A DNA stretch of 64,000 nt from Paraburkholderia aromaticivorans (lineage in GTDB: Bacteria > Pseudomonadota > Gammaproteobacteria > Burkholderiales > Burkholderiaceae), in contig NZ_CP051516.1 of the NCBI RefSeq assembly GCF_012689525.1, positions 1,364,001 to 1,428,000 on the forward strand, in the 5' to 3' direction. Positions 27,279-64,000 of this stretch are shown in pieces. The notes under the pieces were generated by a model. It saw only the letters and a program-made list of their open reading frames with translations, had not been told where the DNA came from and did not search any database. The position numbers and the translations under genes are program-made. Positions within the stretch are counted from its first letter, which is position 1; each line of letters starts with the position of its first letter.

Positions 27279-27288
27279 GAGCGCGCGC

Positions 27289-27738: not shown

Positions 27739-27770
27739 GATGTCTTCTACTCCTGAACTGGATGCGGCTG

Positions 27771-29934: not shown

Positions 29935-30061
29935 TGCTGGCGCCGTTGGTCCGCGACTGAGCGGTGCTTTTTATGCAGGCCGCGCCGCTTCTCGTGGGAT
30001 CATACGTGCCGTGCTGGGCGATTCTGCTTTCCGCACGGTACGAAACGAGAGGAGCAGGGCG

Positions 30062-44683: not shown

Positions 44684-45394
44684 GTGGGTACGAAAGTCGA
44701 AGGGCATTTTCCGGCAGCAGCGGCCCGTATGGAGAGGCCGGGGCGCCCGCGTGAGTTTGGGCGTAAGCAGCAAAACCCAGTACGCCGCTTTGGCGGCATT
44801 GCAGTTGTTCTGCTTTTGCACATCGTGCTGATTTATGCACTGATCAATGGCCTTGCCACCAAGGTCGTGCAGGTCATTCAGCATCCTATCGAAACGAAAA
44901 TCATCGAACCGGTGAAGCCGCCGCCTCCGCCGCCGTTGCCCACGGTGCAATTGCCGCCGCCGAAATTCGCGCCTCCGCCGCCGCCGTTCGTGCCGCCGCC
45001 GGAAGTGCAGGTGCAAGCGCCCCCGCAGCCGACCATTACGCATCAGGCCGCACCGGTGGTGTCGGCGCCTGCCGTGGCCCCGCCCGCACCGCCGGCGCCG
45101 CCCGCGCCGACGAAGCCTGTGAGCACCGAAGTCGGAGTCGTGTGTCCGAACTCGGATCAGATCCGTTCGTCGATCCGCTATCCGAAGGAAGCGCAGGAAA
45201 ACAACGTGACGGGTGATGTTCTCATTGAATTCGTTGTCGACCCGCAAGGCCATATTACGAACGAACGCGTTGCCAAATCCTCGGACGACTCCTCACTGGA
45301 TCGTGCCGCATTCAACGCAGTCAAGCAGTTTACGTGCGTTTCCCAAGGCCAGGCTGTCCGTGTGCAAGTTCCGTTCTCGTTTAACCTGAACTGA
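44684..45394 (+). CDS. tonB: TonB energy-transducing protein
   Basis: A 236-residue inner-membrane-anchored periplasmic protein. The order is a basic N terminus, one membrane anchor (IAVVLLLHIVLIYALINGLA), a long proline-rich rigid segment (about residues 75-150) and a C-terminal TonB domain (IRSSIRYPKEAQENNVTGDV, then VRVQVPFSFNLN). Two cysteines, in GVVCPNSDQ and QFTCVSQGQ, frame the C-terminal domain and may form a disulfide. The frame opens at 44624, but GGAGGAG precedes GTG 44684 at ideal spacing. It leads an operon with exbB, two exbD genes and a TPR gene, and would power the nearby TonB receptor. Confidence 0.93.
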   Translation: MGTKVEGHFPAAAARMERPGRPREFGRKQQNPVRRFGGIAVVLLLHIVLIYALINGLATKVVQVIQHPIETKIIEPVKPPPPPPLPTVQLPPPKFAPPPPPFVPPPEVQVQAPPQPTITHQAAPVVSAPAVAPPAPPAPPAPTKPVSTEVGVVCPNSDQIRSSIRYPKEAQENNVTGDVLIEFVVDPQGHITNERVAKSSDDSSLDRAAFNAVKQFTCVSQGQAVRVQVPFSFNLN

Positions 45395-45470
45395 ATTCAC
45401 AGGCTGTTCGGTACCGGTAGCGATTTATCAGTCTTGGTTTAGAAGTTGTACTAATGAACTTGGAGCAGGC

Positions 45471-46379
45471 ATGAAGAAGCGTACTCTCGCCGCACTGGCG
45501 GCAAGCATGTTGATCGCCGTAACCACGGTGGATACCTTTGTTGCACCGCAAATGGCCCATGCGCAGGCTAGCGACGCCACGGCGTCGGCTGCCGCCGCAC
45601 CGGCGACCGCCGCGCCGCAAACCGCGAGCGCGGCCGCCGACGAAGCAGTGCCGCCGCCGGCGCCGGCTACGTCCGAAACCGTCAGCAACCCGTACGGCCT
45701 TAGCGCCCTCTGGAAGAACGGCGACTTCGTCGCGCGTTTCGTGCTGATTCTGCTGGTGCTCATGTCGATGGGCAGCTGGTACATCATGATCACCAAGTTC
45801 TTCGAGCAGTTCCGTGCGAACCGCCGCGCGAAAAGCGCCGACGAGCAGCTGTGGACCGCGCCGTCGCTGGGTGAAGGCGCGAAGCTGCTCGACGAGACGT
45901 CGCCGTTCCGCTTCATCGCAGAAACGGCTATCGAGGCGGGCGAGCATCACGACGAAGCACTGCTCGAAGCCGTGGACCGCAACACGTGGATCGATACCTC
46001 GGTGGAGCGTGCGATCACCAACGTGTCGAATCGTCTGCAAGACGGTTTGGCGTTCCTCGGCACGGTGGGTTCGACGGCGCCGTTCGTCGGGCTGTTCGGT
46101 ACGGTGTGGGGGATTTATCACGCGCTGACGGCCATCGGCATTGCCGGCCAGGCTTCGATCGACAAGGTCGCGGGTCCGGTGGGCGAGGCGCTGATCATGA
46201 CGGCGATCGGTCTCGCGGTGGCGGTGCCCGCGGTGCTCGGCTACAACTTCCTGGTTCGCCGCAACAAGTCGGTGATGGAACGTGTCCGCGCATTCGGCGC
46301 GCAGCTGCATACCGTCCTGTTGGCCGGCAGCCGCCGCCCGGCGCGCGCCGTGGCTCGTGAAGCGTCGCTGGTTCAATAA
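45471..46379 (+). CDS. exbB: ExbB proton-channel subunit
   Basis: A 302-residue inner-membrane protein of the TonB-ExbB-ExbD motor. The N terminus is a cleavable-looking signal sequence (MKKRTLAALAASMLIAVTTV ... MAHAQA) followed by an Ala/Pro-rich periplasmic extension to about residue 72. Then come three membrane helices with the family core GLAFLGTVGSTAPFVGLFGT and ALIMTAIGLAVAVPAVLGYN. It is longer than E. coli ExbB because of the N-terminal extension, as in many environmental Gram-negatives. It lies between tonB and exbD. Confidence 0.95.
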   Translation: MKKRTLAALAASMLIAVTTVDTFVAPQMAHAQASDATASAAAAPATAAPQTASAAADEAVPPPAPATSETVSNPYGLSALWKNGDFVARFVLILLVLMSMGSWYIMITKFFEQFRANRRAKSADEQLWTAPSLGEGAKLLDETSPFRFIAETAIEAGEHHDEALLEAVDRNTWIDTSVERAITNVSNRLQDGLAFLGTVGSTAPFVGLFGTVWGIYHALTAIGIAGQASIDKVAGPVGEALIMTAIGLAVAVPAVLGYNFLVRRNKSVMERVRAFGAQLHTVLLAGSRRPARAVAREASLVQ

Positions 46380-46391
46380 GCGGAGTCCGTC

Positions 46392-46814
46392 ATGGCAATG
46401 AGCGTTGGGCAGGACGACAACGACGAGGTCATCTCCAGTATCAACACCACGCCGCTCGTCGACGTGATGCTGGTTCTGCTGATCATCTTTCTGATCACGA
46501 TTCCGGTCGTGACGCATACGGTGCCGGTGCAATTGCCGAAGGAGACGATCCAGCCGCTGCAGACCACGCCCAAAAGTATCGTCATCGCGGTCAACCGCGA
46601 CGGCGACTTCTTCTGGAACGAGAAGCAGGTCGACGCGCCGACGCTGCTGGCACGCCTGAAAACCGTGTCGGTCATGACGCCGCAACCGGAAGTGCATGTT
46701 CGCGGCGACCAGAGCGCGCGTTATGAATTCATCGGCCGGGTCATTACCGAGTGCGAGCGCGCCGGTATCGCCAAGGTTTCGTTTATCACTGAGCCGCCCG
46801 CGCGCGGCGGCTGA
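46392..46814 (+). CDS. exbD: ExbD subunit, first copy
   Basis: A 140-residue single-span protein with the proton-path aspartate in NTTPLVDVMLVLLIIFLIT and a periplasmic domain (EVHVRGDQSARYEFIGRVI). It starts 12 nt after exbB. With ExbB it forms the proton-driven motor that energises TonB. A second, distinct exbD follows, so the motor could contain mixed ExbD subunits. Confidence 0.95.
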   Translation: MAMSVGQDDNDEVISSINTTPLVDVMLVLLIIFLITIPVVTHTVPVQLPKETIQPLQTTPKSIVIAVNRDGDFFWNEKQVDAPTLLARLKTVSVMTPQPEVHVRGDQSARYEFIGRVITECERAGIAKVSFITEPPARGG

Positions 46815-46821
46815 TTTTGCG

Positions 46822-46855
46822 TGGGATCGGACTAAGCGCTAAAGCGCCAAGTCCG
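46822..46855 (+). other. Hairpin between the two exbD genes
   Basis: A 9-bp perfect outer stem (GATCGGACT with AGTCCGATC) encloses an inner GCGCT/AGCGC stem. No T-tract follows, and a purine-rich ribosome site for the second exbD (CAGGAG) lies just after. It is more likely an mRNA-processing or stability element than a terminator. Confidence 0.55.
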
Positions 46856-46872
46856 ATCGACAGGAGCCGAAA

Positions 46873-47301
46873 ATGGGAATGAACGTATCGTCGGGCGGCG
46901 GCAGCGAACCGGACGTGATGGTCGACATCAACACCACGCCGCTGATCGACGTGATGCTGGTGTTGCTGATCATGCTGATCATCACGATCCCGATCCAGAC
47001 GCACGCCATCAAGATGAACCTGCCGGTCGGCAATCCGCCGCCGCCGATCACGCAGCCTGAAGTGGTGCAGATCGATATCGACTTCGACGGCACCACGACC
47101 TGGAACGGCCAGCCGGTGCCGAACCGCGCGGCGCTCGAATCGAGGCTCGCGCAAGTGGCTGCCGAACCGGTTCAGGCTGAAATCCATCTGCGGCCGAACA
47201 AGCTGGTGCCGTACAAGGATGTCGCGGAGGTCATGGCGTCCGCGCAACGACTGGGCGCGACCAAGATCGGCCTGATCGGCAATGAGCAGTACATGCAATA
47301 G
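46873..47301 (+). CDS. exbD: ExbD subunit, second copy
   Basis: A 142-residue ExbD paralogue with the conserved NTTPLIDVMLVLLIMLIIT helix and a periplasmic domain ending AQRLGATKIGLIGNEQYMQ. It is clearly diverged from the first copy (PVGNPPPPITQPE in place of PKETIQPLQTTPK), so it is not a recent duplication. AGGAG precedes its ATG. It is followed nine nt later by the TPR gene. Two-ExbD operons are known in Xanthomonas, where the second copy is needed only for some substrates. Confidence 0.94.
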   Translation: MGMNVSSGGGSEPDVMVDINTTPLIDVMLVLLIMLIITIPIQTHAIKMNLPVGNPPPPITQPEVVQIDIDFDGTTTWNGQPVPNRAALESRLAQVAAEPVQAEIHLRPNKLVPYKDVAEVMASAQRLGATKIGLIGNEQYMQ

Positions 47302-47310
47302 GGAAGGGCA

Positions 47311-48495
47311 ATGCAAACGATTCATCACCGGTTCAAGCGCGCCGTCATCGCGGCCGCTCTCGTGCTGCCGCTCGCCGCTCATGCCGCCGATACCTTGCGG
47401 CCGGATGTGGCGAAGCCGCTGAATGCCGCACAGGATCTGTATCGCGCGCACAAGTACAAGGACGCGCTGACGAAGATCGATCAGGCGGCGGCTGTGCCCG
47501 GCAAGACGCCGTACGAAAGCACCCTGATCGAGGAGATGCGTGGCGCGGCAGCGGCGGCGGCGGGTGAAACCGGCGTGGCTGCCCAGGCTTACGAAACGTT
47601 GCTGAGTTCCGGCAAGCTGAGCGGCGCCGACGAGCAGCGCACGTCGGCGGCATTGGCCGGCATCTACTTCCAGCAGAAGAACTATGCGCAGGCGGCGAAG
47701 GTGGCGCAGCGTTATCTGAAGTCGGGTGGCAGCGATCCGGACATGCGCACGCTGCTGGTTCAGTCTTACTACCTGTCGAACGATTGCGCGAGCGTGGTGA
47801 GCCTGCTCAAGCCCGGCATCGATGCGCAGGTGCATGCCGGTCGCGCGCCTGACGAATCGCAACTGCAATTGCTCGGCACGTGTGCGCAACGCGTGAAGGA
47901 CGATGCCACGTACCGCAGCACGCTCGAAAAGCTGGTGGCCTATCATCCGAAGCAGTCTTACTGGGACGATCTGTTCTCGGCGATTCGCAATAAGCCGGGC
48001 TATTCGTCGAAGCTCGATATCGACACGTATCGCCTGCGTCGCGCCACCGGCTCGCTGTCGACCGCCGACGACTACATGGAAATGACCCAGTTGGCGATCG
48101 TGGCGGGCACCGCCGCGGAAGGCAAGCAGGTCATCGATCAAGGCTTTACTTCGGGCGTACTGGGACGTGACGCGCAGGCGGATCGCGAGAAACGCCTGCA
48201 GGCACTCGCGGCCAAGCGTGCGCAAGCGCCCGCCGATCCGGCGAACCCCGTTGCCCCCGTCGATATGGGTTTCAACCAGGTTTTCGCGGGGCAGGCGAAG
48301 CAGGGTCTGGCGGCGATGGATGCCGCGATCGCCCAGGGTGGAATCGACCATCCGGACCAGGCGCAGTTGCATCTCGGTGTGGCGTACTACACCGCGGGCG
48401 ACAAGGCTCGCGCGGTGCAAACCTTCCGTGCGGTGAAAGGCACCGATGGCTCCGCCGACCTCGCGCGTTTGTGGGTGCTGGTGGCGTCGAAATAA
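47311..48495 (+). CDS. Exported TPR protein of the TonB operon
   Basis: A 394-residue protein with a signal peptide (cleavage near AAHAAD) and a helical-repeat body of TPR-like units (QDLYRAHKYKDALTKIDQAAA, LAGIYFQQKNYAQAAKVAQRYLKSG, QLHLGVAYYTAGDKARAVQTFRAV). It is the last gene of the tonB-exbB-exbD-exbD operon. Periplasmic TPR proteins tied to TonB systems (TtpA in Vibrio) support energy transfer to certain receptors; the same role is inferred here. Confidence 0.85.
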   Translation: MQTIHHRFKRAVIAAALVLPLAAHAADTLRPDVAKPLNAAQDLYRAHKYKDALTKIDQAAAVPGKTPYESTLIEEMRGAAAAAAGETGVAAQAYETLLSSGKLSGADEQRTSAALAGIYFQQKNYAQAAKVAQRYLKSGGSDPDMRTLLVQSYYLSNDCASVVSLLKPGIDAQVHAGRAPDESQLQLLGTCAQRVKDDATYRSTLEKLVAYHPKQSYWDDLFSAIRNKPGYSSKLDIDTYRLRRATGSLSTADDYMEMTQLAIVAGTAAEGKQVIDQGFTSGVLGRDAQADREKRLQALAAKRAQAPADPANPVAPVDMGFNQVFAGQAKQGLAAMDAAIAQGGIDHPDQAQLHLGVAYYTAGDKARAVQTFRAVKGTDGSADLARLWVLVASK

Positions 48496-48792
48496 GAGCA
48501 CTCCGTTCCCTTTAAGTTCTCGCAGATGAGGCGCGTCCCCTCGCGGCGGACACGAGGGAGCGCGCTCGTCCCAATTAATGTGGGACCCTCCCCGATATCG
48601 ATGTGGGGTTGCAGTCGCAACTACTAAATGGATTGTTGAGCATTGGGAAAGTCTTCTGGATAACCAATTGATGCGGTTATCCATGGCGGACTGTCAACTG
48701 GCCTATCAGAGACGTTTAGAGAGAACGTTGCGCTCCATGAAACATAATTTGCATATATCAAACTATTTTTGACTACGGGATTCTGTCTTGCT
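48496..48792. other. Intergenic region between the TPR gene and the XRE-cupin gene
   Basis: About 300 bp. Inverted repeats near 48532-48566 (GCGCG-TCCCCTCG / CGAGGG-A-GCGCG) may end the TonB-operon transcript, though no T-tract follows. GTTGC-AGTC-GCAAC at 48609-48622 is a dyad, and TTAGTAGT (reverse strand, 48620-48627) is shared with other control regions of the locus. The last 60 bases are AT-rich and probably hold the regulator promoter. No gene is seen. Confidence 0.45.
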
Positions 48793-49368
48793 ATGGTCTT
48801 GCCACTTAATAACAAGGCACATGTTGCAATCTCTATAGGAAGCAAAATCCGCGCGCTGCGCCAACGGCTCAGTCGCACGCTGGATGAAGTGGCAACGACC
48901 GCGGGCATTTCCAAGCCCTTTTTGTCGCAGGTGGAACGGGGTCACGCAACACCTTCGATTACGTCGCTAGTCGGTATTGCGCGAGCTTTGGGTGTCACGG
49001 TGCAGTACTTCGTCGATACGCCGACCGAAGACAAGTCGGTGCGTAGAGGAAGTGAGTTGAAGTACTTCGGATTTGACGGAACCGCCAATCTGTTTGGAAG
49101 GCTGACGAACCTGTCGGTCGGCGGCAAGCTGGAAGTGATCCTCGTCAGGATGCCGGTGGGACAGAACCCGTCGGAAGTCACAACGCATGCCGGTGAAGAA
49201 TTCTTGTATGTGATGAGCGGCCAGATCTCGCTCACGCTGGAAGGCACAACGTTCGTATTGCAGGCAGGCGACACCGCGCATTACGAGTCTACCGTGCCGC
49301 ACTCCTGGTCCAATACCGCGCGTGAAGAAGCGGTGGTCGTGTGGGTGGGGACGCCAAGATTATTTTAG
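48793..49368 (+). CDS. XRE-cupin transcriptional regulator
   Basis: A 191-residue protein with a lambda-type helix-turn-helix (IGSKIRALRQRLSRTLDEVATTAGISKPFLSQVE, about residues 15-50) and a C-terminal cupin domain (HAGEEFLYVMSGQISLTLEGTTF, then YESTVPHSWSN). Regulators of this type (PuuR, SutR) bind a small metabolite in the cupin and control uptake and catabolic operons. It lies between the TonB operon and the receptor gene, all on one strand, and is the obvious local regulator. The ATG at 48793 is chosen over a TTG at 48769. Its effector may be the imported peptide or a breakdown product. Confidence 0.9.
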   Translation: MVLPLNNKAHVAISIGSKIRALRQRLSRTLDEVATTAGISKPFLSQVERGHATPSITSLVGIARALGVTVQYFVDTPTEDKSVRRGSELKYFGFDGTANLFGRLTNLSVGGKLEVILVRMPVGQNPSEVTTHAGEEFLYVMSGQISLTLEGTTFVLQAGDTAHYESTVPHSWSNTAREEAVVVWVGTPRLF

Positions 49369-49671
49369 CGCCGTGGGCCATGCTTTAGAAAAAATAGATC
49401 ACTCGATATTTGTAAGCATTACTTAAGTGTATACCCGCGATTTGGGAAGCCCGGACTACACGTGGCGAAATCCACTCGCGTAGCAGTAGAAATGGCATCA
49501 ATTGGAAAGCGCTGCGCATTCCGATTGCAATAAATTAGTAGTCCGACACTGACTTATTTGATGTTGCTTTAACGGAACGCGGCGCAAGATCGCCGTATAT
49601 CGAGTAGAGCGGTTCACGAGACCACTCTTCACATACTGCTGTGGCCTTACTGACGAGCGAGAAGGGGAAAA
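49369..49671. other. Control region of the TonB-dependent receptor gene
   Basis: About 300 bp, AT-rich in the middle, with TTAGTAGT at 49535-49542 (also seen upstream of tonB and of the XRE gene). AGAAGGGGAAAA gives a strong ribosome site before the receptor ATG. No gene and no Fur-like box were seen, which argues against a simple iron-regulated siderophore receptor. Confidence 0.5.
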
Positions 49672-52416
49672 ATGAAACAAAGGGCATTGGCGCTGGCCAT
49701 TAGAAGAATAGTCTGGGCTGAACTGGCGTTGTCGGCCGTAATCGCCGTACCGGCGTTTGCACAAAGCCAGCCGGCCACCACCGGCACGGCGGCAGGCGCG
49801 ACGACGACGGAAAGCACCCCGGCAACGGGCACGGCTGCCACGCCGTCCGCGGATAGCAACACCGCGACGCCGACGGGCAAAGGGGTTCAGCAACTCAAGA
49901 AATTTGAAGTGACCGGGTCGCTGATCCGCACGTCGGACAAGGTCGGCAACACGGAAGTTCAGACCATCACGACCAAGGAAATCCAGCAAAGCGGTTATAC
50001 GACCGTGGCCGACTTCCTGCGCGGCACGTCCGCGAACTCGGGGAGCAGTTGGGGCCAAACGACGATGAACAGCTCCGCGCAAGGCGGTGGCGGCATTGCA
50101 TTGCGCGGTCTGAGCGAGAAGTACACGCTGGTGCTGGTGGACGGGCAACGGGTGGCGAATTACGGCAAGGCGGTGAACTTCACCGACACGTTCTTCGACG
50201 TGAATTCGATCCCGCTCAACATGATCGACCACATCGACATCGTGAAGACCGGTGCGGTCTCGGTGTACGGGTCGGATGCCATTGCGGGCGTGGTCAACAT
50301 CATCACGAAGAAGGAATTCCAGGGTCTGCAGATCGATGGCCAGCTCGGCAAGGCGCAGCATCCAGGCGACGGGCAGGGTAACTTCAGCGTGCTCGGCGGT
50401 ATCGGCGATCTGAATAGCGACCGCTTCAACGTAACGGCCGCCGCGAGTTACTACCGCGACACCGGCTCGTCGCTCGGCGATCGCGACATGACGGCGGGTC
50501 AGGACTTCAGCCAGTTCCCGGGCGGCCTCGCGGGCCCGCTCGGTCCGAACCAGCAGTCGTACTGGACCACGGCCGACGGCACCCACATGGCGCTCAGCCC
50601 CTGCCCTCCGGGCAGCGTGTCGGCGAACGGCGCGTCCACGTGTAAATCGAATCCGGCCAGCGCCACTTCGCTGGTGCCGGCGATCACGCGCCTGAACGCG
50701 AAAGTGCGCGGCACCTTCAAGATCAACGACGATGTGCAGGCTTATGCCGACCTTTGGGTGAGCCGCAACGAGACCGTGCAGAACGAAGGTTCGGCGGTGT
50801 TGAGCAGCCAGACCAACGCGTTCAACCCGGCCACCGGTTCGGCCTTGCCGCTGTCGCGCACGGTCTCGGGCACGAACCCGTACAACCCGTTCGGCGTGCC
50901 CACGCTGATCAACTACACGTTCCCGAACACCGTGTCGGCGGATACGGTGTCGACGTTCTGGCGTGCATCGACCGGTGTGAAGGGCTCGTTCACCACCGCC
51001 AAATTCGGCGATTGGGATTGGTCCGCGGATTACGGCCATTCGCAGAGCACGGTCGACACGACCTACGGCAACGCGCTGAATGTTGCAGGCGTCGAGAACA
51101 TTCTGCAAAACGGCGTGTTCAATTTCTCGAACCCGTCGGCCACGCCGAATGGTTTGAACGGCGTGTTCCAGAACGACTACGATCAGGCGATCTCGAAGCT
51201 CGACAGCGTCACGGCGAAGACCTCGACGGGCAACCTGTTCAATCTGCCAGGTGGCCCGGTCGGTGTCGGTTTCGGTACGGAATTCCGTCACGAAAGCAAC
51301 CTGATCAACTCGCGCACGTATAGCGCGCTTGGGATTACCGCGCCGGCCAACGTGCAGATGGTCGACGGCGAGCGCAATGTGGCTGCCGTCTACTATCAGG
51401 TCGATATTCCGATCATCCACAACCTGACGTTTACGCAGGCGGGCCGCTACGACCACTACAGCGACTTCGGTGGCGCGTTCTCGCCGAGCTTCGCATTGCG
51501 CTTCCAGCCGGTGCGGTCTGTCACGGCGTTCGCATCGTATAGCCGCGGCTTCCGTGCGCCGACGCTGGTCGAAAACTCGCAGGCAACCTATCTGGCTCAC
51601 CAGAACCTGGTTGACCCGAACGACCCGAGCGGCACGCCGACCAAGCACTTCACGACGGAACAGGTCAACGGCAATCCGGCGCTGCAGCCTGAGCACACCA
51701 AGAACTACAACATCGGCTTCCAGCTTTCACCGGACTCGTCGACGGATATCGGTGCGGCGTTCTACAAGATCCACATTGACGGCGTGATCGGCACGGACGA
51801 TCCGAACGCGGTGATGGATGCGAACAACCCGTCGAGCGTGATCCGCAATCCGGACGGCACGGTGGCCTTCATCAAGGAACAGTTCGTCAACCTCGGTTCG
51901 CTCGACACCGACGGCTTCGACATGAACTTCCGCAAGTCGGTGGGCACGAAGTACGGCACGTTCACGCTGGCAGGCGACTGGGCCTACGTGTGGCACTTCA
52001 AGCTGAATAGCCCGGGTGCGCCGACGCAGGACTTCGCTGGCAACAACCTCGCGCTGTTGCAGCCGTTCGGTGCGTCCAATCCGCGCTGGAAGGGTAATAC
52101 CAGCCTCTCGTGGGATTACCGCAAGCTGACCACCACGCTGACGTGGCAGTACACCGGCCCGTACACCAACGCGGTGGCGTCCGAGTTCGGCGACGGCGGC
52201 ACGCTGTCGGTGGCGTCGTACAGCCAGTTCAACCTGATGGCCACGTATCGCGGCTTCAAGAACTGGACGATCTACGGCGGTATCAACAACATCTTCGATC
52301 GCAAGCCGCCGTTCGACGTCGAGTGGCAGGCCACCCCGGATATCACGGGCTACGACCAGTCGCTTTACACTAACATCGGCCGCTTCTTCCAGGTCGGTGC
52401 GTCGTACCGCTTCTGA
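49672..52416 (+). CDS. TonB-dependent outer-membrane receptor
   Basis: A 914-residue outer-membrane transporter. A signal peptide (residues 1-31, ending VPAFAQ) is followed by a Thr/Ala-rich linker, a TonB-box-like segment (KKFEVTGSLIRT), a plug domain (about 75-205; GGGIALRGLSEKYTLVLVDGQR, VYGSDAIAGVVNIITKK) and a large 22-strand barrel ending in the usual terminal aromatic (ASYRF). Two cysteines (PCPPGS ... STCKSN) may close a surface loop. The plug is of the environmental type often used for peptides and plant compounds rather than a classic ferri-siderophore receptor. It stands between its own TonB system and a peptide ABC importer, so a peptide-like ligand is likely. Confidence 0.92.
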   Translation: MKQRALALAIRRIVWAELALSAVIAVPAFAQSQPATTGTAAGATTTESTPATGTAATPSADSNTATPTGKGVQQLKKFEVTGSLIRTSDKVGNTEVQTITTKEIQQSGYTTVADFLRGTSANSGSSWGQTTMNSSAQGGGGIALRGLSEKYTLVLVDGQRVANYGKAVNFTDTFFDVNSIPLNMIDHIDIVKTGAVSVYGSDAIAGVVNIITKKEFQGLQIDGQLGKAQHPGDGQGNFSVLGGIGDLNSDRFNVTAAASYYRDTGSSLGDRDMTAGQDFSQFPGGLAGPLGPNQQSYWTTADGTHMALSPCPPGSVSANGASTCKSNPASATSLVPAITRLNAKVRGTFKINDDVQAYADLWVSRNETVQNEGSAVLSSQTNAFNPATGSALPLSRTVSGTNPYNPFGVPTLINYTFPNTVSADTVSTFWRASTGVKGSFTTAKFGDWDWSADYGHSQSTVDTTYGNALNVAGVENILQNGVFNFSNPSATPNGLNGVFQNDYDQAISKLDSVTAKTSTGNLFNLPGGPVGVGFGTEFRHESNLINSRTYSALGITAPANVQMVDGERNVAAVYYQVDIPIIHNLTFTQAGRYDHYSDFGGAFSPSFALRFQPVRSVTAFASYSRGFRAPTLVENSQATYLAHQNLVDPNDPSGTPTKHFTTEQVNGNPALQPEHTKNYNIGFQLSPDSSTDIGAAFYKIHIDGVIGTDDPNAVMDANNPSSVIRNPDGTVAFIKEQFVNLGSLDTDGFDMNFRKSVGTKYGTFTLAGDWAYVWHFKLNSPGAPTQDFAGNNLALLQPFGASNPRWKGNTSLSWDYRKLTTTLTWQYTGPYTNAVASEFGDGGTLSVASYSQFNLMATYRGFKNWTIYGGINNIFDRKPPFDVEWQATPDITGYDQSLYTNIGRFFQVGASYRF

Positions 52417-52461
52417 AGTCCTTGATGCTTGTGATGCACCCGCAGTCTGTCTAGTCGGCTG

Positions 52462-52506
52462 GCCGCTCCGGCTTCCATCATTGGTGCCGGAGCGGCGCAA
52501 TTTTGT
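52462..52506 (+). terminator. Terminator after the TonB receptor gene
   Basis: A perfect 11-bp stem (GCCGCTCCGGC with GCCGGAGCGGC) around a 13-nt loop is followed by GCAATTTTGTT. It lies 45 bases beyond the receptor stop and should end most transcripts there. Confidence 0.85.
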
Positions 52507-52611
52507 TAGCGACGTACTTTGGAGTGCCCGCGTGCACAATGCTCGTTCAGGACCACGGCGAGCGGCGGCGGCCAGTCAGCTGCGGCGCAGCGCTAGCGGG
52601 GAAAGCTACGG

Positions 52612-52680
52612 GAGCGACGGCGTCAGGCCGTCGCTCGCGCCGATTCGATTTACCGCGCGCCGGCCTGAAGCCGGCGCGCG
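52612..52680 (+). promoter_or_regulatory. Two strong hairpins just before yejA
   Basis: Hairpin one: GAGCGACGGC pairs with GCCGTCGCTC (52612-52636, 5-nt loop). Hairpin two: an 11-bp stem of CGCGCGCCGGC with GCCGGCGCGCG (52654-52680, loop CTGAA), followed by TTCTT. The second ends only 18 bases before the yejA ATG, whose ribosome site is weak. They may be terminators or attenuators controlling entry into the yej-tld operon. Confidence 0.6.
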
Positions 52681-52698
52681 TTCTTACGCATTCCGAAG

Positions 52699-54636: not shown

Positions 54637-54644
54637 GGCACAGC

Positions 54645-56766: not shown

Positions 56767-58430
56767 CCACCACTCAGGCGCCGATCGCTCGGCCGTTGCT
56801 GGAAATCGACCGTTTCTCCGTGCGTTTCGGCGGCAAGGTCGCTGTGCATGAACTCAGCCTCTCCATTGCACGCGGCGAGCGCGTGGCACTTGTCGGCGAA
56901 TCGGGTTCGGGCAAGAGCGTCACCGCGCTGTCCATTCTGAGGCTCGTCGAGCATGCCGAGTTGAGCGGCCGCATGTTGCTCGATGGCGAGGACCTACTGC
57001 AGAAAACCGAACAGCAGATGCGCGGTCTGCGCGGCGCGGATGTCGCAATGGTGTTTCAGGAACCGATGACGGCGCTCAACCCGCTCTTCACGGTCGGCAA
57101 GCAGATCGCCGAGAGTCTACGTCTGCACGAAGGTTTGCGGCCGAATGCGGCGCGTGAGCGCGGCATCGAGTTGCTCAGGCGCACGGGCATTCCTGAACCG
57201 GAGCGGCGCATCGACAGTTTTCCGCACCAATTGTCCGGCGGCCAGCGGCAGCGCGCGATGATCGCCATGGCGCTTGCTTGCCGTCCGCGTTTGCTGCTCG
57301 CCGACGAACCGACCACCGCGCTCGACGTCACCGTTCGCCAGCAGATCGTCGATCTGTTGATTTCGTTGCAGGAACAGGAGGCGGCCGAACGCGGCATGGC
57401 CGTGCTGCTGATCACGCACGACCTGAATCTGGTGAAGCGTTTTGCGCAGCGCGTCGCGGTGATGGAGAAGGGCGTGCTGGTTGAAACCAATACGACCGAG
57501 GCGTTGTTCGCGAGTCCACAGCATCCGTACACGCAGCGGCTGCTCGACAGCGATCCGCAACGCGCGGTCGAGCCGGTCGAGGAGGGCGCGCGCCGGCTGC
57601 TCGAAGTACAAGGCTTGGCCGTCGATTACCGCACGTCGGCAAAAGGCTGGCGGTCCATGTTCGGGCGCTCCACGTTCCGCGCGGTGCATAACGTCGATCT
57701 GAGCTTGCGGCGCGGTGAAACGCTCGGCATCGTCGGTGAATCGGGCTCGGGTAAATCGACGCTAGCCGCCACCGTGCTCGGCCTGCAGCAGCCGGCCGCC
57801 GGTCATATTCATATCGACGGCTTGCCGCTGTCCTCGCTCAAGACGGCGAGTTCGCGCCGCGCGCTGTATTCGCGCATGCAAGTCGTGTTTCAGGACCCGT
57901 TCGGCTCGCTGTCGCCACGCATGACGGTGGAGCAGATCATCGGCGAGGGTTTGGCTGTACATCGGCCGGAAGTGGATGCGAAGGCGCGGCGCGCGCGCGT
58001 CGGCACTCTGCTCGAAGAGGTCGGCATGCCCGCCGACGCGATGCTGCGCTATCCGCATGAATTCTCCGGCGGCCAGCGTCAACGCATTGCGATTGCGCGC
58101 GCGCTCGCGGTCGAGCCGGAATTGCTGGTGCTCGACGAACCGACCAGCGCGCTCGATGTCTCGATCCAGAAACAGGTGTTGAATCTGCTGACAAATCTGC
58201 AGAAAAAGTACAAGCTAAGCTATTTGTTCATTACGCACGATCTGGCGGTGATGCGAGCCATGGCGCATCGCGTGATCGTGATGAAGTCGGGACGCATCGT
58301 CGAAGCCGGCGACACACTCGATGTGTTGCATGCGCCGTCGCATCCTTATACCCAGTCGCTGCTGGCCTCGTCGCTCAATGGGCAGAAGCCTGGCGCCGCC
58401 GCAATTCATACGGGACACGCCAATGATTGA
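56763..58430 (+). CDS. yejF: YejF-like peptide ABC transporter ATPase (double ABC)
   Basis: A 555-residue cytosolic ATPase with two ABC modules in one chain. Module 1: Walker A GESGSGKS near residue 45, signature LSGGQRQR, Walker B LLLADEPT. Module 2: GESGSGKST near residue 330, FSGGQRQR, LLVLDEPT. Each carries the oligopeptide-ATPase tail (HPYTQRLL, HPYTQSLL). ATG 56763 overlaps the yejE stop as ATGA. It energises the YejBE channel. Eight bases of its end overlap tldD, so peptide uptake and proteolysis are coupled at the translational level. Confidence 0.95.
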   Translation: MTTTQAPIARPLLEIDRFSVRFGGKVAVHELSLSIARGERVALVGESGSGKSVTALSILRLVEHAELSGRMLLDGEDLLQKTEQQMRGLRGADVAMVFQEPMTALNPLFTVGKQIAESLRLHEGLRPNAARERGIELLRRTGIPEPERRIDSFPHQLSGGQRQRAMIAMALACRPRLLLADEPTTALDVTVRQQIVDLLISLQEQEAAERGMAVLLITHDLNLVKRFAQRVAVMEKGVLVETNTTEALFASPQHPYTQRLLDSDPQRAVEPVEEGARRLLEVQGLAVDYRTSAKGWRSMFGRSTFRAVHNVDLSLRRGETLGIVGESGSGKSTLAATVLGLQQPAAGHIHIDGLPLSSLKTASSRRALYSRMQVVFQDPFGSLSPRMTVEQIIGEGLAVHRPEVDAKARRARVGTLLEEVGMPADAMLRYPHEFSGGQRQRIAIARALAVEPELLVLDEPTSALDVSIQKQVLNLLTNLQKKYKLSYLFITHDLAVMRAMAHRVIVMKSGRIVEAGDTLDVLHAPSHPYTQSLLASSLNGQKPGAAAIHTGHAND

Positions 58431-59859
58431 CGAACGTTGGGCGCAGGCCGCCCAAACGCTGAAGAGCCGCGCGGCGTTCTGGTCGCTGCGCATTGTCGAC
58501 GAACAGATCGACGACCACGAGATCCGCAACGACATCGCGCAGCCGCTGCGCACGGTGCGCGATCGCGGTGCGATGCTGATCGCGTGGGTAGGCGCGGGCG
58601 CGGGTTACGCCGCGACCGCGAATCTCTCGGCGGCCGGTTTGCAGGCGGCGCTCGATATGGCCACCGCACGCGCTGAGGCGAGCGCGGCCTTGTCGCTGAT
58701 CGACCATCGCGAAGTCGCACGCCCGGTTGCGAGCGGCCAGTATGTGTCGCCGAATGCGCAACGCGCGTTGCCGAGCCGCGCCGAATGGCTCGAGCTTCTC
58801 AGCGCGGAATGCGCGGGCGCGAATCTCGACGCGAAAATTGTCGAACGTGTGGCGGCGGTGCAGATCACGCACACCGATCAACTCTATATCACCGGCGACG
58901 GTGTACGGATCGACCAGCAGTTCCGCTTCGTGATGCCGCAATTGAGCGTCGCCGCGCACGCGAACGGCGATACGCAAGTGCGCACGCTCGGCGGCAACTA
59001 CGGCACGCTCGGACAGGGCGGCATGGAAGTGCTGGCGCGCTTCGGCTTCGAAGGCTCGGGCGCGCGCGTCGCTAACGAAGCGCTGCAATTGCTGGCCGCG
59101 CCGAATTGCCCGTCGGGCAAGCGCGATCTGTTGCTGATGCCTGATCAGATGATGCTGCAGATTCACGAATCGATCGGCCATCCGCTCGAACTGGATCGCA
59201 TTCTCGGCGACGAGCGCAATTTCGCGGGCTGGAGCTTCGTCAAGCAGGACATGTTCGGTTCGTATCGCTACGGTTCGGAACTACTGAACGTCACCTTCGA
59301 TCCGGAACTGCGCGAAGAAGCCGCATCCTACGCGTTCGACGACGACGGCACCGAAGCGCACAAGGAATATCTGATTCGCAACGGCGTGCTGGAGCGTCCG
59401 CTCGGCGGCGCGCTATCGCAACAGCGCGCACGCATGCCCGGTGTCGCGAACTCGCGCGCGTCGAACTGGAACCGGCCGCCGATCGACCGCATGGCGAATC
59501 TGAATATCGAGCCCGGCGAGAGTTCGCTGGAGGAGATGATCGGCAATATCGAACACGGCATTCTGATGCGCACCAACACGTCCTGGTCGATCGACGATCA
59601 TCGCAACAAATTCCAGTTCGGCTGCGAGTTCGGCCAGTTGATCGAAAACGGCAAGCTCACCCAGGTCGTCAAACAGCCGAATTACCGCGGCATTTCGGCG
59701 AATTTCTGGCGCAGTCTGAGCGCGGTGGGCAATGCCGCCACGCGCGAAGTGTATGGCACGTCCATGTGCGGCAAGGGTGAACCGGCGCAGATCATTCGCG
59801 TCGGTCATGCGTCGCCGGCTTGCGTGTTCAGCAATATCGACGTGTTCGGGGGCGCATGA
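58423..59859 (+). CDS. tldD: TldD-type zinc metalloprotease subunit
   Basis: A 478-residue member of the TldD/PmbA family. The metal site HESIGH (HExxxH) is at residues 248-253, and a likely third ligand is C449 in GTSMCGKGEP, as in E. coli TldD. TldD acts with TldE as a cytosolic heterodimeric protease that trims microcin B17 and degrades unstructured peptides. It is an extra, operon-linked copy by context; whether the genome also has a housekeeping tldD cannot be seen here. The start ATG 58423 lies inside the end of yejF. The gene is in the importer operon, which suggests it cleaves what YejABEF brings in. Confidence 0.93.
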   Translation: MIDERWAQAAQTLKSRAAFWSLRIVDEQIDDHEIRNDIAQPLRTVRDRGAMLIAWVGAGAGYAATANLSAAGLQAALDMATARAEASAALSLIDHREVARPVASGQYVSPNAQRALPSRAEWLELLSAECAGANLDAKIVERVAAVQITHTDQLYITGDGVRIDQQFRFVMPQLSVAAHANGDTQVRTLGGNYGTLGQGGMEVLARFGFEGSGARVANEALQLLAAPNCPSGKRDLLLMPDQMMLQIHESIGHPLELDRILGDERNFAGWSFVKQDMFGSYRYGSELLNVTFDPELREEAASYAFDDDGTEAHKEYLIRNGVLERPLGGALSQQRARMPGVANSRASNWNRPPIDRMANLNIEPGESSLEEMIGNIEHGILMRTNTSWSIDDHRNKFQFGCEFGQLIENGKLTQVVKQPNYRGISANFWRSLSAVGNAATREVYGTSMCGKGEPAQIIRVGHASPACVFSNIDVFGGA

Positions 59860-61220
59860 TGAGCCAGTTCATCTCTTCGCGCGCCGCTACGTCGGTGGAT
59901 TGGGAGCGGCATTTCACTTTGCTCGCCGATGCGATTGAGCGTCTGCAGCAAGGCGGCGAAACCACGCTCAGTTCATTTGCCGGCGAGCAGTCCGACTTCA
60001 TCCGTTTCAATTCGGGCAAGGTGCGGCAGACCGGCAGTGTGTCGCAAGGCAAGCTGACTCTGCGTTTGATCGACGGCGCACGTCAGGCCTATTCCACGCT
60101 GACCGTATGCGGCGATCTGCAACAGGATCTCGACGAAGTGAGCGCCGCGCTTGCCACTTTGCGCGAAGGTCTGCGCGATGCGGCGGACGATCCGCATCTA
60201 CTGTTCGACACGTCGAAATGGCAGCGCACCACGCAGCGCTCCGGCAAGTTGCCGAATCCTGATGGCCTCGCGCGCATCGTCGCGGAATGCGCGCAAGGGC
60301 TCGACTTCGTGGGCTTCTATGCGGGCGGCACCATCGTGCGCGGTTTCGCGTCGACGAACGGCAGCCGCGGCTGGTATGAAGTGGACAACTTCAATTTCAG
60401 CTGGTCGCTGTACGACCCGAGCGGCCGCGCGATCAAAACCACCTACGCCGGCGACGACTGGAGCGATGCCGTGTTCGCGCGCAAAGTCGAGCAGGCCGCA
60501 ACCCGCCTTGCCGTGCTCGCGCGCACGCCGCGCGCGTTGGCGCCGGGCCGTTACCGCTCCTATCTGACGCCCGCCGCGTTGGCGGAACTGCTCGGCGTCA
60601 CCGCATGGAGCGGCTTTTCCGCCCGCGCCCAGGCGAGTTCGCGCAGTGAGTTGTACAAGCTGCATGTGGGAGAAGTCGTAGTCGACCCGCGCGTAACGAT
60701 CAGCGAAGATCTCAGTCTCGGCATCACGCCAGGTTTCAACGACGACGGCTACCTGCGCGACAGCGTCCCGTTGATCGAGGCCGGCCGCAGTGCCGAACGC
60801 CTGACCAACGCACGCAGCGCGCGTGAATACGGTTTGACGCCCAACGGCGCGCTGGCCAACGAGTCGCCGGCCGCGCTCTCCATGCAAGCGGGCGATCTGC
60901 CGGAAGAAGACGTGCTCGCCAGGCTCGATACCGGGCTCTATATCGGCAACCTCTGGTATGTGAACTTCTCGGACCGCATGAATTGCCGCCTGACCGGCAT
61001 GACGCGCTTCGCGACGTTCTGGGTCGAGAACGGAGAAATCGTCGCGCCGCTCGAAGCCATGCGTTTCGACGACAGCCTTTACCGTTTGCTCGGCAGCGAA
61101 CTCGAACAACTCGGCGCGCAAGCCGAACTGCTGTTGAGCGATTCGACGTGGGGCGAGCGCGCCACGGGCGGCATGCAATTGCCGGGCATTCTCGTGAGGT
61201 CATTCGAATTGACGCTATGA
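59856..61220 (+). CDS. tldE: TldE/PmbA-type protease partner subunit
   Basis: A 454-residue TldD/PmbA-family protein without an HExxxH site, as expected of the TldE partner that shapes the substrate channel. Conserved stretches are TTLSSFAGEQSDFIRFNSGKVRQTG, RGFASTNGSRGWYEVDNFNFSWSLY and SVPLIEAGRSAERLTNARSAREYG. Two ATGs in a row (59856 and 59859) overlap the tldD stop, so the subunits are translationally coupled for one-to-one assembly. It is followed four bases later by the first GNAT gene. Confidence 0.9.
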   Translation: MMSQFISSRAATSVDWERHFTLLADAIERLQQGGETTLSSFAGEQSDFIRFNSGKVRQTGSVSQGKLTLRLIDGARQAYSTLTVCGDLQQDLDEVSAALATLREGLRDAADDPHLLFDTSKWQRTTQRSGKLPNPDGLARIVAECAQGLDFVGFYAGGTIVRGFASTNGSRGWYEVDNFNFSWSLYDPSGRAIKTTYAGDDWSDAVFARKVEQAATRLAVLARTPRALAPGRYRSYLTPAALAELLGVTAWSGFSARAQASSRSELYKLHVGEVVVDPRVTISEDLSLGITPGFNDDGYLRDSVPLIEAGRSAERLTNARSAREYGLTPNGALANESPAALSMQAGDLPEEDVLARLDTGLYIGNLWYVNFSDRMNCRLTGMTRFATFWVENGEIVAPLEAMRFDDSLYRLLGSELEQLGAQAELLLSDSTWGERATGGMQLPGILVRSFELTL

Positions 61221-61224
61221 GCCT

Positions 61225-61806
61225 ATGGATCAACACGAAAATACAAAATCAAAACCTGAGAGCTTGCCAGAGGGCCTGACGCTGCGCGCACTGCGCGTGG
61301 CCGACACGGAACAGTTTCACGCAATGCTGCAATTGCCCGTGGCGATGAACGGCAATCCGCAGGTGCCGTTTCGGACCATTGCCAGCACGCGCGAGTACCT
61401 GGAAAAATTCGACGCCCCTGGAATCGCGATCGCGGCGATGGTCGGCGACACGCTGGTCGGTCAGGCGAGCCTCAGCCCATTCAAGGGACGCCGCGCGCAT
61501 GCCGCATCGCTTGGCATTAGCGTGCACGACGCATGGCAGCGGCGCGGCATCGGTCGTGCCTTGATGGCCGAACTGCTCGATCTGGCCGACAACTGGCTCG
61601 GTCTGCGCCGCCTCGAATTGCATGTCTACACCGACAACCACGCGGCACTCGCGCTATATCGCCAGTTCGGCTTCGAGATCGAAGCGCATCAGCGCGGTGC
61701 GGTATTGCGTCGCGGCGTGCTGATCGACTGTTATTTCATGGCGCGGCTGCGCGAGCCGGCGCCGTGGATGTCGCCGCCATCGGGCGCCCCTCTCGCAGCG
61801 GAATAA
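61225..61806 (+). CDS. GNAT acetyltransferase, first of a tandem pair
   Basis: A 193-residue GNAT-fold N-acetyltransferase. The acetyl-CoA loop is QRRGIGRALMAELLDLADN, followed by NHAALALYRQFGFEIEAHQRG, the standard motif-B region. It is related to the YhhY/RimL-like groups. GNATs of the RimL/MccE type protect against microcin C by acetylating its processed aminoacyl-nucleotide; that precedent, and the linkage to YejABEF and TldD/E here, suggests acetylation of a peptide fragment. It starts four bases after tldE. Confidence 0.87.
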   Translation: MDQHENTKSKPESLPEGLTLRALRVADTEQFHAMLQLPVAMNGNPQVPFRTIASTREYLEKFDAPGIAIAAMVGDTLVGQASLSPFKGRRAHAASLGISVHDAWQRRGIGRALMAELLDLADNWLGLRRLELHVYTDNHAALALYRQFGFEIEAHQRGAVLRRGVLIDCYFMARLREPAPWMSPPSGAPLAAE

Positions 61807-61810
61807 GACC

Positions 61811-62359
61811 ATGAAAGAAACAAGGTTGCCGGACGACGCCTCACACGACGAATATATTATGGTGCGCGCGCTCGAATCGTCGGACATGGATGCGTTCGCC
61901 GAGATCATGAGCTTGCCCGGTGTGCGGCGCGGCACGCTGTCGGTCGGCTATCGCAGTCCTGAGCAACTCGCGGCGTGGTACGAGCGGCGCCTCAAAGGCG
62001 GCGTGAACGTCTGCGCGATTATCGACGGGCGCGTGGTGGGCCACGCCGGTCTCGAGGTCCACCGGCCGAGCCGCGCGCACTGCGCGCATCTAGGTCTGGC
62101 CGTGCACGACGCGTATCATGGCCGCGGTGTCGGCGCCGCGCTTTTGCAAGGCTTGATCGATTGCGCGGATGCGTCACTCGGTTTGCGCCGCATCGACCTC
62201 ACGGTGTTTTCCGACAACGCGCCGGCCATCGCGCTGTATCGCAAGTTCGGCTTTGTCGAAGAAGGCCGTTCGCGCGGTTTTGCCCTGCGCGACGGCATCC
62301 TGGCCGACGTGCTGCATATGGCCCGCCTCGTCGACGCACCGCGCCTCCAGACAATCTGA
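61811..62359 (+). CDS. GNAT acetyltransferase, second of a tandem pair
   Basis: A 182-residue GNAT enzyme with the acetyl-CoA loop GRGVGAALLQGLIDCADA and the NAPAIALYRKFGFVEEGRSRG region. It clearly resembles the preceding gene (same length class, same C-terminal pattern ending MARL) and probably arose by an old tandem duplication; sequence divergence implies distinct substrates. It starts four bases after the first GNAT gene and ends 13 bases before the RND gene. Confidence 0.87.
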   Translation: MKETRLPDDASHDEYIMVRALESSDMDAFAEIMSLPGVRRGTLSVGYRSPEQLAAWYERRLKGGVNVCAIIDGRVVGHAGLEVHRPSRAHCAHLGLAVHDAYHGRGVGAALLQGLIDCADASLGLRRIDLTVFSDNAPAIALYRKFGFVEEGRSRGFALRDGILADVLHMARLVDAPRLQTI

Positions 62360-62372
62360 ACGGATTCATTGA

Positions 62373-64000
62373 GTGCCATTTTTCTTCATCGACCGCCCGG
62401 TCTTCGCATGGATCGTCGCGCTCGCCATTGTCGTGGCGGGCGCGCTGGCTATTCCTCAACTGCCGGTGGCGCAGTATCCGCGCCTTGCGCCGCCGCGCAT
62501 CGTGATATCCGCCGTGTATCCGGGGGCGTCGACTGAAGTCGTGGACGAGAGCGTCGGCAGCATCATCGAGGAGAGTCTCGATGGCGCTGACAATATGCTG
62601 TACTACCAAACGACCAGCGACAACCTGGGCGAGCTCGAAATCGACGCGACCTTCGCGCCCGGCACCAATCCGGATCTCGCGCTGGTCGACATCCAGAACC
62701 GGCTCAAGCAGGTCGAGCCGCGTTTGCCGCAGCAGGTGGTCCAGCAGGGCATCAGCGTGTTCAAGGCGGCCAACACGTTCCTGATGCTCGTCGCGCTCGC
62801 GTCCACCGACGGCACGCGCGACTCCGTGCAATTGAGCGACTATCTGAGCCGCTACGTGTTGCGCGAACTGAAGCGCGCGCCGGGTGTGGGCTCGGCCCAA
62901 CTCTGGGACGCCGACGAAGCGCTGCGCATCTGGCTCGATCCGATGAAGCTGCGCGAATACGGCCTCGGCGCCGCCGAGGTGAACGCCGCCATCGCCGCAC
63001 AGAACGCGACCGTCACGGCGGGCACGCTCGGCGACGCGCCGTTCGTGCCGGGCCAGCAATTGACGGCCTCGGTGAGCGTGAAAGGCCAGTTGATCTCGCC
63101 GGCCGAATTCAGTCAGATCGTGCTGAAGGCGCGGCCGGACGGCTCGGCTGTGCGCCTGCGCGACGTCGCGCGAGTCGAACTCGGGCGTGACAACTACTCG
63201 TACTATTCGCGCCTGAACGGCAAGGCTGCGGCAACGGTCGGGATTCAGCTCGGGCCGCGTGGCAACGCGCTCGAAACGTCGAACGCGATTCGCGCGCGGC
63301 TTGCCGAGTTGGCAAAAGGATTGCCTTCGGGCGTCTCCATCGAAATCCCGTTCGACAACGCGCATTTTGTGCAGATCGCCATTCACGAGGTACTCGTCAC
63401 GCTCGCGGAAGCGGTAGTGCTGGTGTTCTTCGTGATGTGGCTGTTCCTGCGCGATCTGCGCTATACGCTGGTACCAACCGTGGTGATTCCGGTCACGCTG
63501 ATGGGCGCGTTTCTCGCCATGTATGCGTGCGGTCTGTCGATCAACGTGTTCACGATGTTCGGGCTCGTGCTCGCCATCGGTATTCTCGTCGACGACGCGA
63601 TCGTGGTGGTGGAGAGCGTGCATCGCGTGATGGAGGAAGAGGGCTTGCCGCCACGCGAGGCCACGCGCAAGGCCATGTCGCAGATCGGCGGCGCGATCGT
63701 CGGCGTGACGGCGGTGTTGACGGCGGTGTTCGTGCCGATGGCGTTCTTTCCCGGCGGCGTCGGCGGGATCTACCGGCAATTCGCGGTGGCGATGATCGCG
63801 TCGATGCTGGTGTCGTCGTTCATGGCCTTGTCGTTGACGCCCGCGTTGTGCGCGAATCTGCTGAAGGCGCACACGCAATCGGTGCGTCAACGCGATGCGC
63901 GCCGCGGCATTCCCGGTCTCGCGGCGCGTGCGGCGAGCCGCTTCACGTCCGGCTTCGATCGCGCCGCAAGTGGTTATCGCGGCTTGACGGCGCGCACGTT
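62373..64000 (+). CDS. RND efflux pump (HAE1/AcrB type), cut by window end
   Basis: The first 542 residues of an inner-membrane RND pump. It opens MPFFFIDRPVFAWIVALAIV and contains the first periplasmic domain, FVMWLFLRDLRYTLVPTVVIPV, and the proton-relay segment GILVDDAIVVVESVHRVME with its aspartate pair. GTG 62373 starts the frame. Unlike most RND loci, no membrane fusion protein gene precedes it; one may lie downstream, outside the window. Its place directly after tldD-tldE-GNAT-GNAT suggests export of the peptide or its toxic products. Confidence 0.93.
   Translation, partial: MPFFFIDRPVFAWIVALAIVVAGALAIPQLPVAQYPRLAPPRIVISAVYPGASTEVVDESVGSIIEESLDGADNMLYYQTTSDNLGELEIDATFAPGTNPDLALVDIQNRLKQVEPRLPQQVVQQGISVFKAANTFLMLVALASTDGTRDSVQLSDYLSRYVLRELKRAPGVGSAQLWDADEALRIWLDPMKLREYGLGAAEVNAAIAAQNATVTAGTLGDAPFVPGQQLTASVSVKGQLISPAEFSQIVLKARPDGSAVRLRDVARVELGRDNYSYYSRLNGKAAATVGIQLGPRGNALETSNAIRARLAELAKGLPSGVSIEIPFDNAHFVQIAIHEVLVTLAEAVVLVFFVMWLFLRDLRYTLVPTVVIPVTLMGAFLAMYACGLSINVFTMFGLVLAIGILVDDAIVVVESVHRVMEEEGLPPREATRKAMSQIGGAIVGVTAVLTAVFVPMAFFPGGVGGIYRQFAVAMIASMLVSSFMALSLTPALCANLLKAHTQSVRQRDARRGIPGLAARAASRFTSGFDRAASGYRGLTART

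Follow-up and report, generated by a model that had tools for sequence, protein, structure and literature searches.

How does a peptide made by one bacterium enter another, and what becomes of it there? Several described systems cover part of this route. TldD/TldE matures microcin B17. In Pseudomonas aeruginosa, the SppR-SppABCD system places a TonB receptor beside a peptide-type ATP-binding cassette (ABC) importer. Lasso-peptide isopeptidase loci combine a TonB receptor with a cytoplasmic enzyme that opens the natural peptide, and in methanobactin uptake (MbnT-MbnE) a TonB receptor works with a YejA-like binding protein on a metal ligand. To our knowledge, the outer-membrane entry routes of Yej-imported peptides are poorly known, and few natural substrates of TldD/TldE are known. 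Escherichia coli YejA is reported to have been crystallised with an undecapeptide (PMC10924461), YejBEF-YepA is reported to have a role in muropeptide uptake (PMC9790009), and phazolicin reportedly enters Sinorhizobium meliloti via both YejABEF and BacA, with transposon sequencing leaving its outer-membrane route unrevealed (PMC10128002). Here we describe a locus of Paraburkholderia aromaticivorans that encodes a TonB-dependent receptor with its energy set, a Yej-type importer, a TldD/TldE pair, two GNAT acetyltransferases and an RND permease. The window, the whole 64,000-nt stretch analysed, belongs to a 10.84-Mb genome in four contigs; the locus spans 44624-64000, with all genes on the + strand. 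We consider it probable, if by a modest measure, that this locus is a dedicated outer-to-inner uptake-and-degradation pathway for natural-product-like peptides, its specificity set by an exchangeable receptor. The gene set, its conservation, the catalytic residues and the receptor exchange are the parts that the sequence itself shows.

Gene set of the locus

The locus begins with tonB (44624-45394; Pfam TonB_C), whose true start is probably further in, at 44729-44825. It is followed by exbB of the TolQ/ExbB family (45471-46379; MotA_ExbB), exbD1 (46392-46814) and exbD2 (46873-47301; both ExbD), a TPR protein gene (47311-48495; TPR) and a gene for an XRE-cupin regulator (48769-49368; HTH_3 and Cupin_2) that is PuuR-like, below the cut-off. 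The receptor of 914 residues (49672-52416) has a Plug and a TonB barrel domain and, with tonB-exbB-exbD nearby, represents a TonB-dependent transporter with its own energy set. Downstream lie yejA, for a binding protein of the YejA/MbnE type (52699-54636; SBP_bac_5), the permease genes yejB (54645-55697) and yejE (55651-56766; both BPD_transp_1), yejF for a double ABC ATPase (56763-58430; Pfam-supported), the gene of the TldD-type metallopeptidase (58423-59859; PmbA_TldD, with HESIGH ... GTSMCGKG) and that of its TldE-type partner (59856-61220; PmbA_TldD domains). The genes for GNAT1 (61225-61806) and GNAT2 (61811-62359; both Pfam GNAT) come next, and an AcrB-type RND permease gene (ACR_tran) starts at 62373 and runs past the window's end at 64000 to the window-equivalent position 65585. 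The original prediction, made from the letters of the window, had listed this set from tonB to the RND gene, and every member is indeed present, on the + strand and with Pfam support. It had also placed all overlaps and gaps from yejA to the pump at 13 nt or less, which agrees with the recomputed values of 8, -47, -4, -8, -4, 4, 4 and 13 nt. With 282 nt between receptor and yejA, the receptor gene may be transcribed on its own.

The importer and the peptidase, likewise named beforehand as Yej-type and TldD/TldE, are borne out by the match of YejA to its E. coli counterpart and by the catalytic residues that TldD retains. Residues 52-636 of YejA score 338-340 bits against the E. coli YejA chains, as a YejA-type SBP_bac_5 protein, and the protein also matches 7z8e, 4ony and the methanobactin-binding MbnE (5icq, 329 bits). 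The best NCBIfam models for the other three components are YejB, YejE and YejF, with scores that are all under the cut-off (432.5 against 445, 394.6 against 439 and 618.9 against 834). A Yej-like transporter is supported by these matches, and peptide transport is predicted. TldD aligns with E. coli TldD (5nj5) over HESIGH and the Cys motif; it misses the cut-off of the curated TldD equivalog (83.6 against 513 bits) and that of the archaeal TldD model (94.4 against 635). HESIGH (HExxxH) and the third-ligand Cys motif are found in 72 of the 72 loci fetched from the genus, all of which also have an adjacent TldE-type partner.

Is this simply the Yej-TldD equipment of the cell? The genome holds a second yejABEF elsewhere, whose YejB is 72% identical to the locus copy, and a sole further TldD match of 488 residues, 25% identical, also elsewhere. 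Profiles found no receptor, GNAT or RND permease in the 10-12 kb stretches around these other closest yej and tldD copies. The locus is a dedicated set beside an ordinary yejABEF and tldD kept elsewhere. A gene that we read as resembling glutamyl-tRNA synthetase lies within the same 12-kb stretch as the second yejABEF.

Conservation within the genus

In a first survey of relatives' loci, the best 80 of 544 confirmed places were kept. The genus set consists of 72 loci besides the window's own, fetched as 20-kb pieces with about 10.5 kb upstream of tldD; four (L142, L165, L170 and L173) are shorter at contig ends. Because the pieces end short upstream, the genus counts for TonB/ExbB(ExbD) are lower bounds. 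The TldD subfamily (E ≤ 1e-70) occurs in 72 of 117 genus genomes, own genome included. In 58 of the 72 fetched loci yejBEF precedes tldDE, with a median gap of -4 nt between ATPase and TldD. yejA and the receptor are each seen in 57 of these 58, the exception in both cases being L142, which is truncated at a contig end. At least one GNAT is present in 54, the RND permease in 54, the XRE gene in 49, ExbD in 48 (a lower bound) and the TPR gene in 45; the TPR protein travels with the TonB/ExbBDD set. The remaining 14 tldDE loci have no yej in their piece, and receptor, GNAT, RND, XRE and ExbD were found in none of them. The earlier idea of one unit whose parts co-occur beyond chance thus stands within the genus.

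One of the 14 yej-less loci, L130, is an additional copy, its genome having a full locus as well, and three of the other 13 genomes (G398, G439 and G449) carry a locus-type YejB (E ≤ 1e-180) on another contig. Over the 117 genomes, 62 have both locus-type YejB and TldD, 10 TldD only, 5 YejB only and 40 neither, counting one truncated YejB taken from the locus pieces; the odds ratio is 49.6 on raw counts that ignore kinship. Receptor, Yej and TldDE are joined at one locus in 59 of the 117 sampled genomes. As to the flanks, a UvrA-like gene of 1994 codons (two UvrA units in a single frame, 37714-43698) lies immediately 5' of tonB in the window; in L130 tldDE stands alone, flanked by the uvrA-type and AraC-type genes that also border the window's locus.

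Receptor exchange on a constant backbone

Do all parts of this unit share one history? Identities were compared among 59 yej-bearing loci, the window included, with 437-577 pairs depending on the gene. The Spearman correlation with TldD identity is 0.78-0.94 for tldE, yejA, yejB, yejE, yejF, xre, gnat1, gnat2 and rnd, and 0.33 for the receptor. Among the 571 pairs whose TldD proteins are at least 90% identical, the receptors fall below 65% identity in 54%; the corresponding figure is 0% for tldE, yejA/B/E/F, xre and rnd, and 3% and 9% for the two GNATs. At 70% identity the receptors form seven types of 26, 18, 8, 2, 2, 1 and 1 members. The receptor alignment leaves out three short receptors (L104, L106 and L150). 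On a backbone tree of yejB, yejE, yejF, tldD and tldE (58 rows, a quick build with 10 of 55 inner branches open), the receptor type changes at least 16 times. Since the minimum possible is 6 and shuffled labels give a mean of 27.5, receptor type is inherited in part and exchanged frequently. Even the well supported branches on their own require no fewer than 6 changes in each of the two commonest types; GNAT presence changes 3 times on the same tree.

The window's own receptor carries the trace of such an exchange. In a segment comparison of 7, 8 and 4 chosen receptors of 55, plus 2 as side group, residues 1-30 of the window-kind receptors are 92% identical to type-B (from sister loci) and 65% to type-A (from loci of another layout), and residues 31-75 are 84% and 30% identical. 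The order then reverses, with 66% to type-B and 94% to type-A over residues 76-240, and 52% and 92% over residues 241-914. Judged by these identities, the window's receptor is a recombinant, type-B-like over residues 1-75 and type-A-like over 76-914. A DNA-level comparison of 3, 4 and 2 loci places the upstream junction at 49812-49932, with 120-nt resolution, and the downstream junction zone in the spacer and yejA start at 52420-52930, poorly resolved in the window. The spacer behind the receptor matches either group poorly, and beyond about 52930 the window resembles the two groups to nearly the same degree (81-95% and 72-98% in most blocks). The picture is sharper in L118 and L126, which have the same receptor kind: the yej side is clearly nearer to type-B loci (mostly 86-97% versus 74-90%), and the upstream side likewise. 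Such a pattern would be expected if receptor cassettes are exchanged by homologous recombination while the promoter and signal peptide in front of them stay constant. In some genus loci the TonB set changes too. The tendency of everything but the receptor to stay constant across relatives suggests one machine adapted to many peptides. The AlphaFold prediction of the receptor, made from 20 alignment rows, has a mean predicted local distance difference test score of 47.2.

Acetyltransferases, permease and control region

GNAT1 and GNAT2 are 41% identical. The best model for both is PRK10140, below its cut-off; ArsN1a is the second model for GNAT2 and the third for GNAT1, behind PseH (weak, below the cut-off), and both proteins weakly match HaaN, an acetyltransferase model from ribosomally synthesised and post-translationally modified peptides (RiPPs), again below the cut-off. 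GNAT2, which alone was compared with structures, is closest to PA1377. The original prediction had brought in RimL/MccE GNATs, but neither RimL nor MccE is among the model matches of either protein. Kinship of the pair to RimL or MccE is not supported, and on this ground the microcin C-specific reading was rejected. PRK10140/AaaT acetylates amino acids; in the entries of one search listing no literature on this activity was found. With all family scores under the cut-off, we infer that the two enzymes might acetylate an amino acid or peptide amine. In some loci outside the genus a different GNAT accompanies tldD, as described below.

The full-length RND permease, 1070 residues in locus L004 (window-equivalent 62373-65585), passes the RND_permease_1 model with 1327.9 bits against a cut-off of 1250 and carries GILVDDA and a K, which we take to be relay motifs.

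What might control the locus? A 19-bp inverted repeat upstream of the receptor (49504-49522), in which 8 of 9 arm positions pair, is a candidate operator; under the mismatch limit applied, 0.42 chance matches per window are expected. Its conservation is not strict and it is eroded in many relatives, so an XRE operator remains a lead only. The block TATTTGTAAGCATTACT (49405-49423), also 5' of the receptor, turns up again in several relatives whose receptors differ in type; it is a poor Fur site and perhaps a promoter or operator part. The best Fur match in the window is 13/19, a score that 7 of 200 shuffled sequences also reached; four regions were tested. Over 44 spacers before the receptor no conserved Fur box was found, the best matches to the consensus being 9-13/19. 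Fur control was rejected, as a good shared site is lacking across these spacers.

Occurrence outside the genus

The TldD subfamily, at the same threshold, was found in 37 of 399 order, 27 of 369 class and 10 of 398 phylum genomes, the own genome being counted each time. From order and class 60 loci were fetched, all hits except G841 (two fragments) and G1031; 52 are scorable, a small gene caller trained on the window's genes having called no TldD in the other 8. In L030, from Trinickia, the TonB set is combined with yej, tldDE and RND. In other Burkholderiales, tldDE adjoins Opp-like importers with about 30% YejB identity, and L042, L047 and L175 show a receptor and exbBDD beside them. A different GNAT lies upstream of tldD on the same strand in 9 of the 52 loci, at gaps of 7-402 nt in seven and of 1282 and 4034 nt in two. 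This upstream GNAT family, at L047 9419-9871 and in similar loci, weakly matches the HaaN model and a streptothricin acetyltransferase.

A comparable set also occurs on a plasmid. The 480-kb P. aeruginosa plasmid CP124675 carries tldDE, an ABC exporter, tonB-exbB-exbD, a receptor and yejABEF (L092 12456-29404), in a different order; its receptor is 29% and its YejB 53% identical to those of the window, and the YejB is 54% identical to the other Paraburkholderia copy. A mercury operon adjoins this plasmid set. Four plasmid records, three of them from P. aeruginosa, match tldDE closely in DNA or protein. Chromosomal tldDE of Pseudomonas were rejected as such loci; the neighbours look to us like betIBA and the pieces contain no Yej permease match, and for this reason they are treated as free-standing. 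On a P. sprentiae plasmid with no tldDE nearby, the receptor has a further ABC importer for peptides beside it, made up of a binding protein, two permeases and two ATPases (L237 724-6261).

Proposed mechanism and alternatives

How would such a pathway work? The TonB-energised receptor would capture a peptide or peptide-like natural product, and YejA would pass the captured ligand to YejBEF for transport into the cytoplasm. There the TldD/TldE pair would hydrolyse it, GNAT1 and GNAT2 may acetylate toxic or poorly usable fragments that carry an amine, and the RND permease, with an adaptor and outer channel encoded elsewhere, could expel unusable products. Importer and peptidase would form a constant chassis, and a new receptor cassette, recombining between the promoter/signal-peptide segment native to the locus and yejA, would redirect it to another ligand. 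What we infer beyond the genes themselves is the peptide nature of the ligand, its natural-product-like character, the sequence of the steps and the roles of GNATs and RND.

Two neighbourhoods bear on the ligand. A 125-kb plasmid of P. megapolitana (L239 1-18000) carries a receptor that shares 61-66% identity with the 12 genus receptors closest to it and is followed by a GNAT. About 4 kb away lie two YcaO-TfuA pairs, with a ThiF-rhodanese protein, a ThiS/MoaD-like protein, two MFS genes, an aKG-HExxH-like protein (below the cut-off) and a candidate precursor of 54 residues. YcaO-TfuA pairs are reported to make thioamides in RiPPs (PMC8120280), and we regard this as a putative thioamidated RiPP cluster. 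P. megapolitana also holds an import locus, L141, with two receptors, the species of this genome (G445) being assigned from a 100% identical YcaO and matching coordinates. The second neighbourhood is on a Burkholderia stagnalis plasmid (L091), where a GNAT gene lies upstream of tonB and neither GNAT nor RND follows tldE. Within 12 kb past tldE (22803-30648) are an insulinase-type gene, three B12-type radical-SAM genes and an open reading frame of 55 residues, a possible RiPP cluster. Both cases point to RiPP-like ligands and neither is proof.

Several observations weigh against the uptake-and-degradation pathway. The YcaO neighbourhood is a single case, on the opposite strand and with small genes intervening; YcaO as a regular neighbour was rejected, since such a YcaO (E ≤ 1e-30) is present in 2 of 117 genus genomes, one of them the same cluster. 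No adaptor or outer-membrane factor lies beside the RND gene, the next gene being an AraC-type regulator, and the tripartite arrangement is incomplete at the locus. On plasmids of P. sprentiae, P. largidicola and Caballeronia, 29-kb stretches hold receptor, TonB set and yejABEF but lack tldDE, from which it follows that TldDE is not obligatory. The original prediction was to fall if relatives carried yej-tldDE without receptor, TonB operon and GNATs. The outcome was mixed. Within the genus the receptor is seen in 57 of 58 loci and GNATs are missing from 4 of 58, and 14 of 72 tldDE loci show no yej in their piece. Outside it, a peptide-type permease is near tldD in 7 of the 52 scorable loci, so the wider TldD family is mostly free-standing, and 2 of these 7 show a receptor or ExbD. 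L040, L044, L073 and L178 have no visible receptor, and L030 has none in its piece, which starts at tonB.

What else could the locus do? A more pointed form of the proposal would make it a general-purpose pirate of peptide antibiotics, in which a vertically kept import-cut-acetylate-export chassis captures ribosomal natural products made by rivals and gains new targets as receptor cassettes are exchanged by recombination, some cassettes being common to the producers' RiPP clusters; we hold this to be unlikely, if readily conceivable. The stolen ligand might instead be a foreign metal-binding peptide, a siderophore or chalkophore, with an MbnE-like YejA and with TldDE stripping the peptide to free the metal. 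The best receptor models are of the hemin and siderophore type, the nearest structures are CirA, FepA-type and BtuB receptors, YejA matches MbnE, and the receptor diversity is like that of siderophore receptors. The receptor matches, however, are weak and below their cut-offs, the Fur-like site is not conserved, and reductase, sigma and anti-sigma genes are not among the window's locus genes as annotated, which leaves metal piracy rather improbable. A broad peptide diet, with phage or bacteriocin pressure driving receptor exchange and with GNATs and RND as passengers, would account for an exchange that is limited to the surface protein among the genes compared, and for loci from which GNATs and RND are absent. 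It sits poorly with a genome that already has another yejABEF and with GNATs and RND each kept in 54 of 58 loci, RND identity tracking that of TldD; scavenging of this kind seems to us quite improbable.

Protection is a further thought: the locus might import rivals' peptide antibiotics in order to destroy them, with the GNATs disarming the warhead. The known detoxifying ArsN1 among the GNAT models (weak), the RND gene at the locus end and the receptor relative near a RiPP-like cluster speak for it. But an active importer would admit the toxin, losing uptake would protect more cheaply, and the P. megapolitana case stands single; immunity is very improbable. Least credible, indeed extremely improbable, is a self-made peptide that TldDE trims as in microcin B17 and the importer recaptures, which could call on that maturation and on the B. 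stagnalis genes within 12 kb of tldE. The window's locus genes include no modification gene, a weak counter-argument given that the small profile set applied to the genus loci is blind to such genes.

Comparison with known systems

In full-text searches, judged by titles and the beginnings of abstracts, no published description of the combination of receptor, YejABEF and TldDE was found. By the same titles and abstract beginnings, the literature joining TldD and YejABEF concerns microcins, RiPPs or related antibiotics, and that joining TldD, TonB-dependent receptor, operon and ABC transporter is on biofilm. No literature joining YcaO, TfuA and a TonB-dependent receptor was found in these searches. 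One locus that ties receptor, Yej and TldDE in 59 of 117 genus genomes makes both the entry route and the TldDE substrates testable. Receptor exchange on a constant chassis provides natural strain pairs whose main difference is a single receptor. The receptors themselves could act as probes for undiscovered peptide products.

How do the described systems compare? YejABEF, known from microcin C and phazolicin, shares the protein family, the gene order yejA-B-E-F and a YejA aligned over nearly its full length, whereas here a second copy shares one locus with a receptor, the TonB set, the peptidase, two GNATs and a pump. E. coli TldD/TldE has the same HExxxH and Cys motif and the same paired genes, but the window's TldD belongs to a separate subfamily, far below the equivalog cut-off. 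SppR-SppABCD has in common a TonB receptor beside a peptide-type ABC importer, and we know of no TldDE, GNAT pair or RND in it. The lasso-peptide isopeptidase loci differ in using another enzyme family and are not known to include Yej, and for MbnT-MbnE uptake we know of no TldDE. The parts of the locus are known families; what is new is their assembly, a proposed pathway from receptor to peptidase encoded at a single locus whose receptors are exchangeable.

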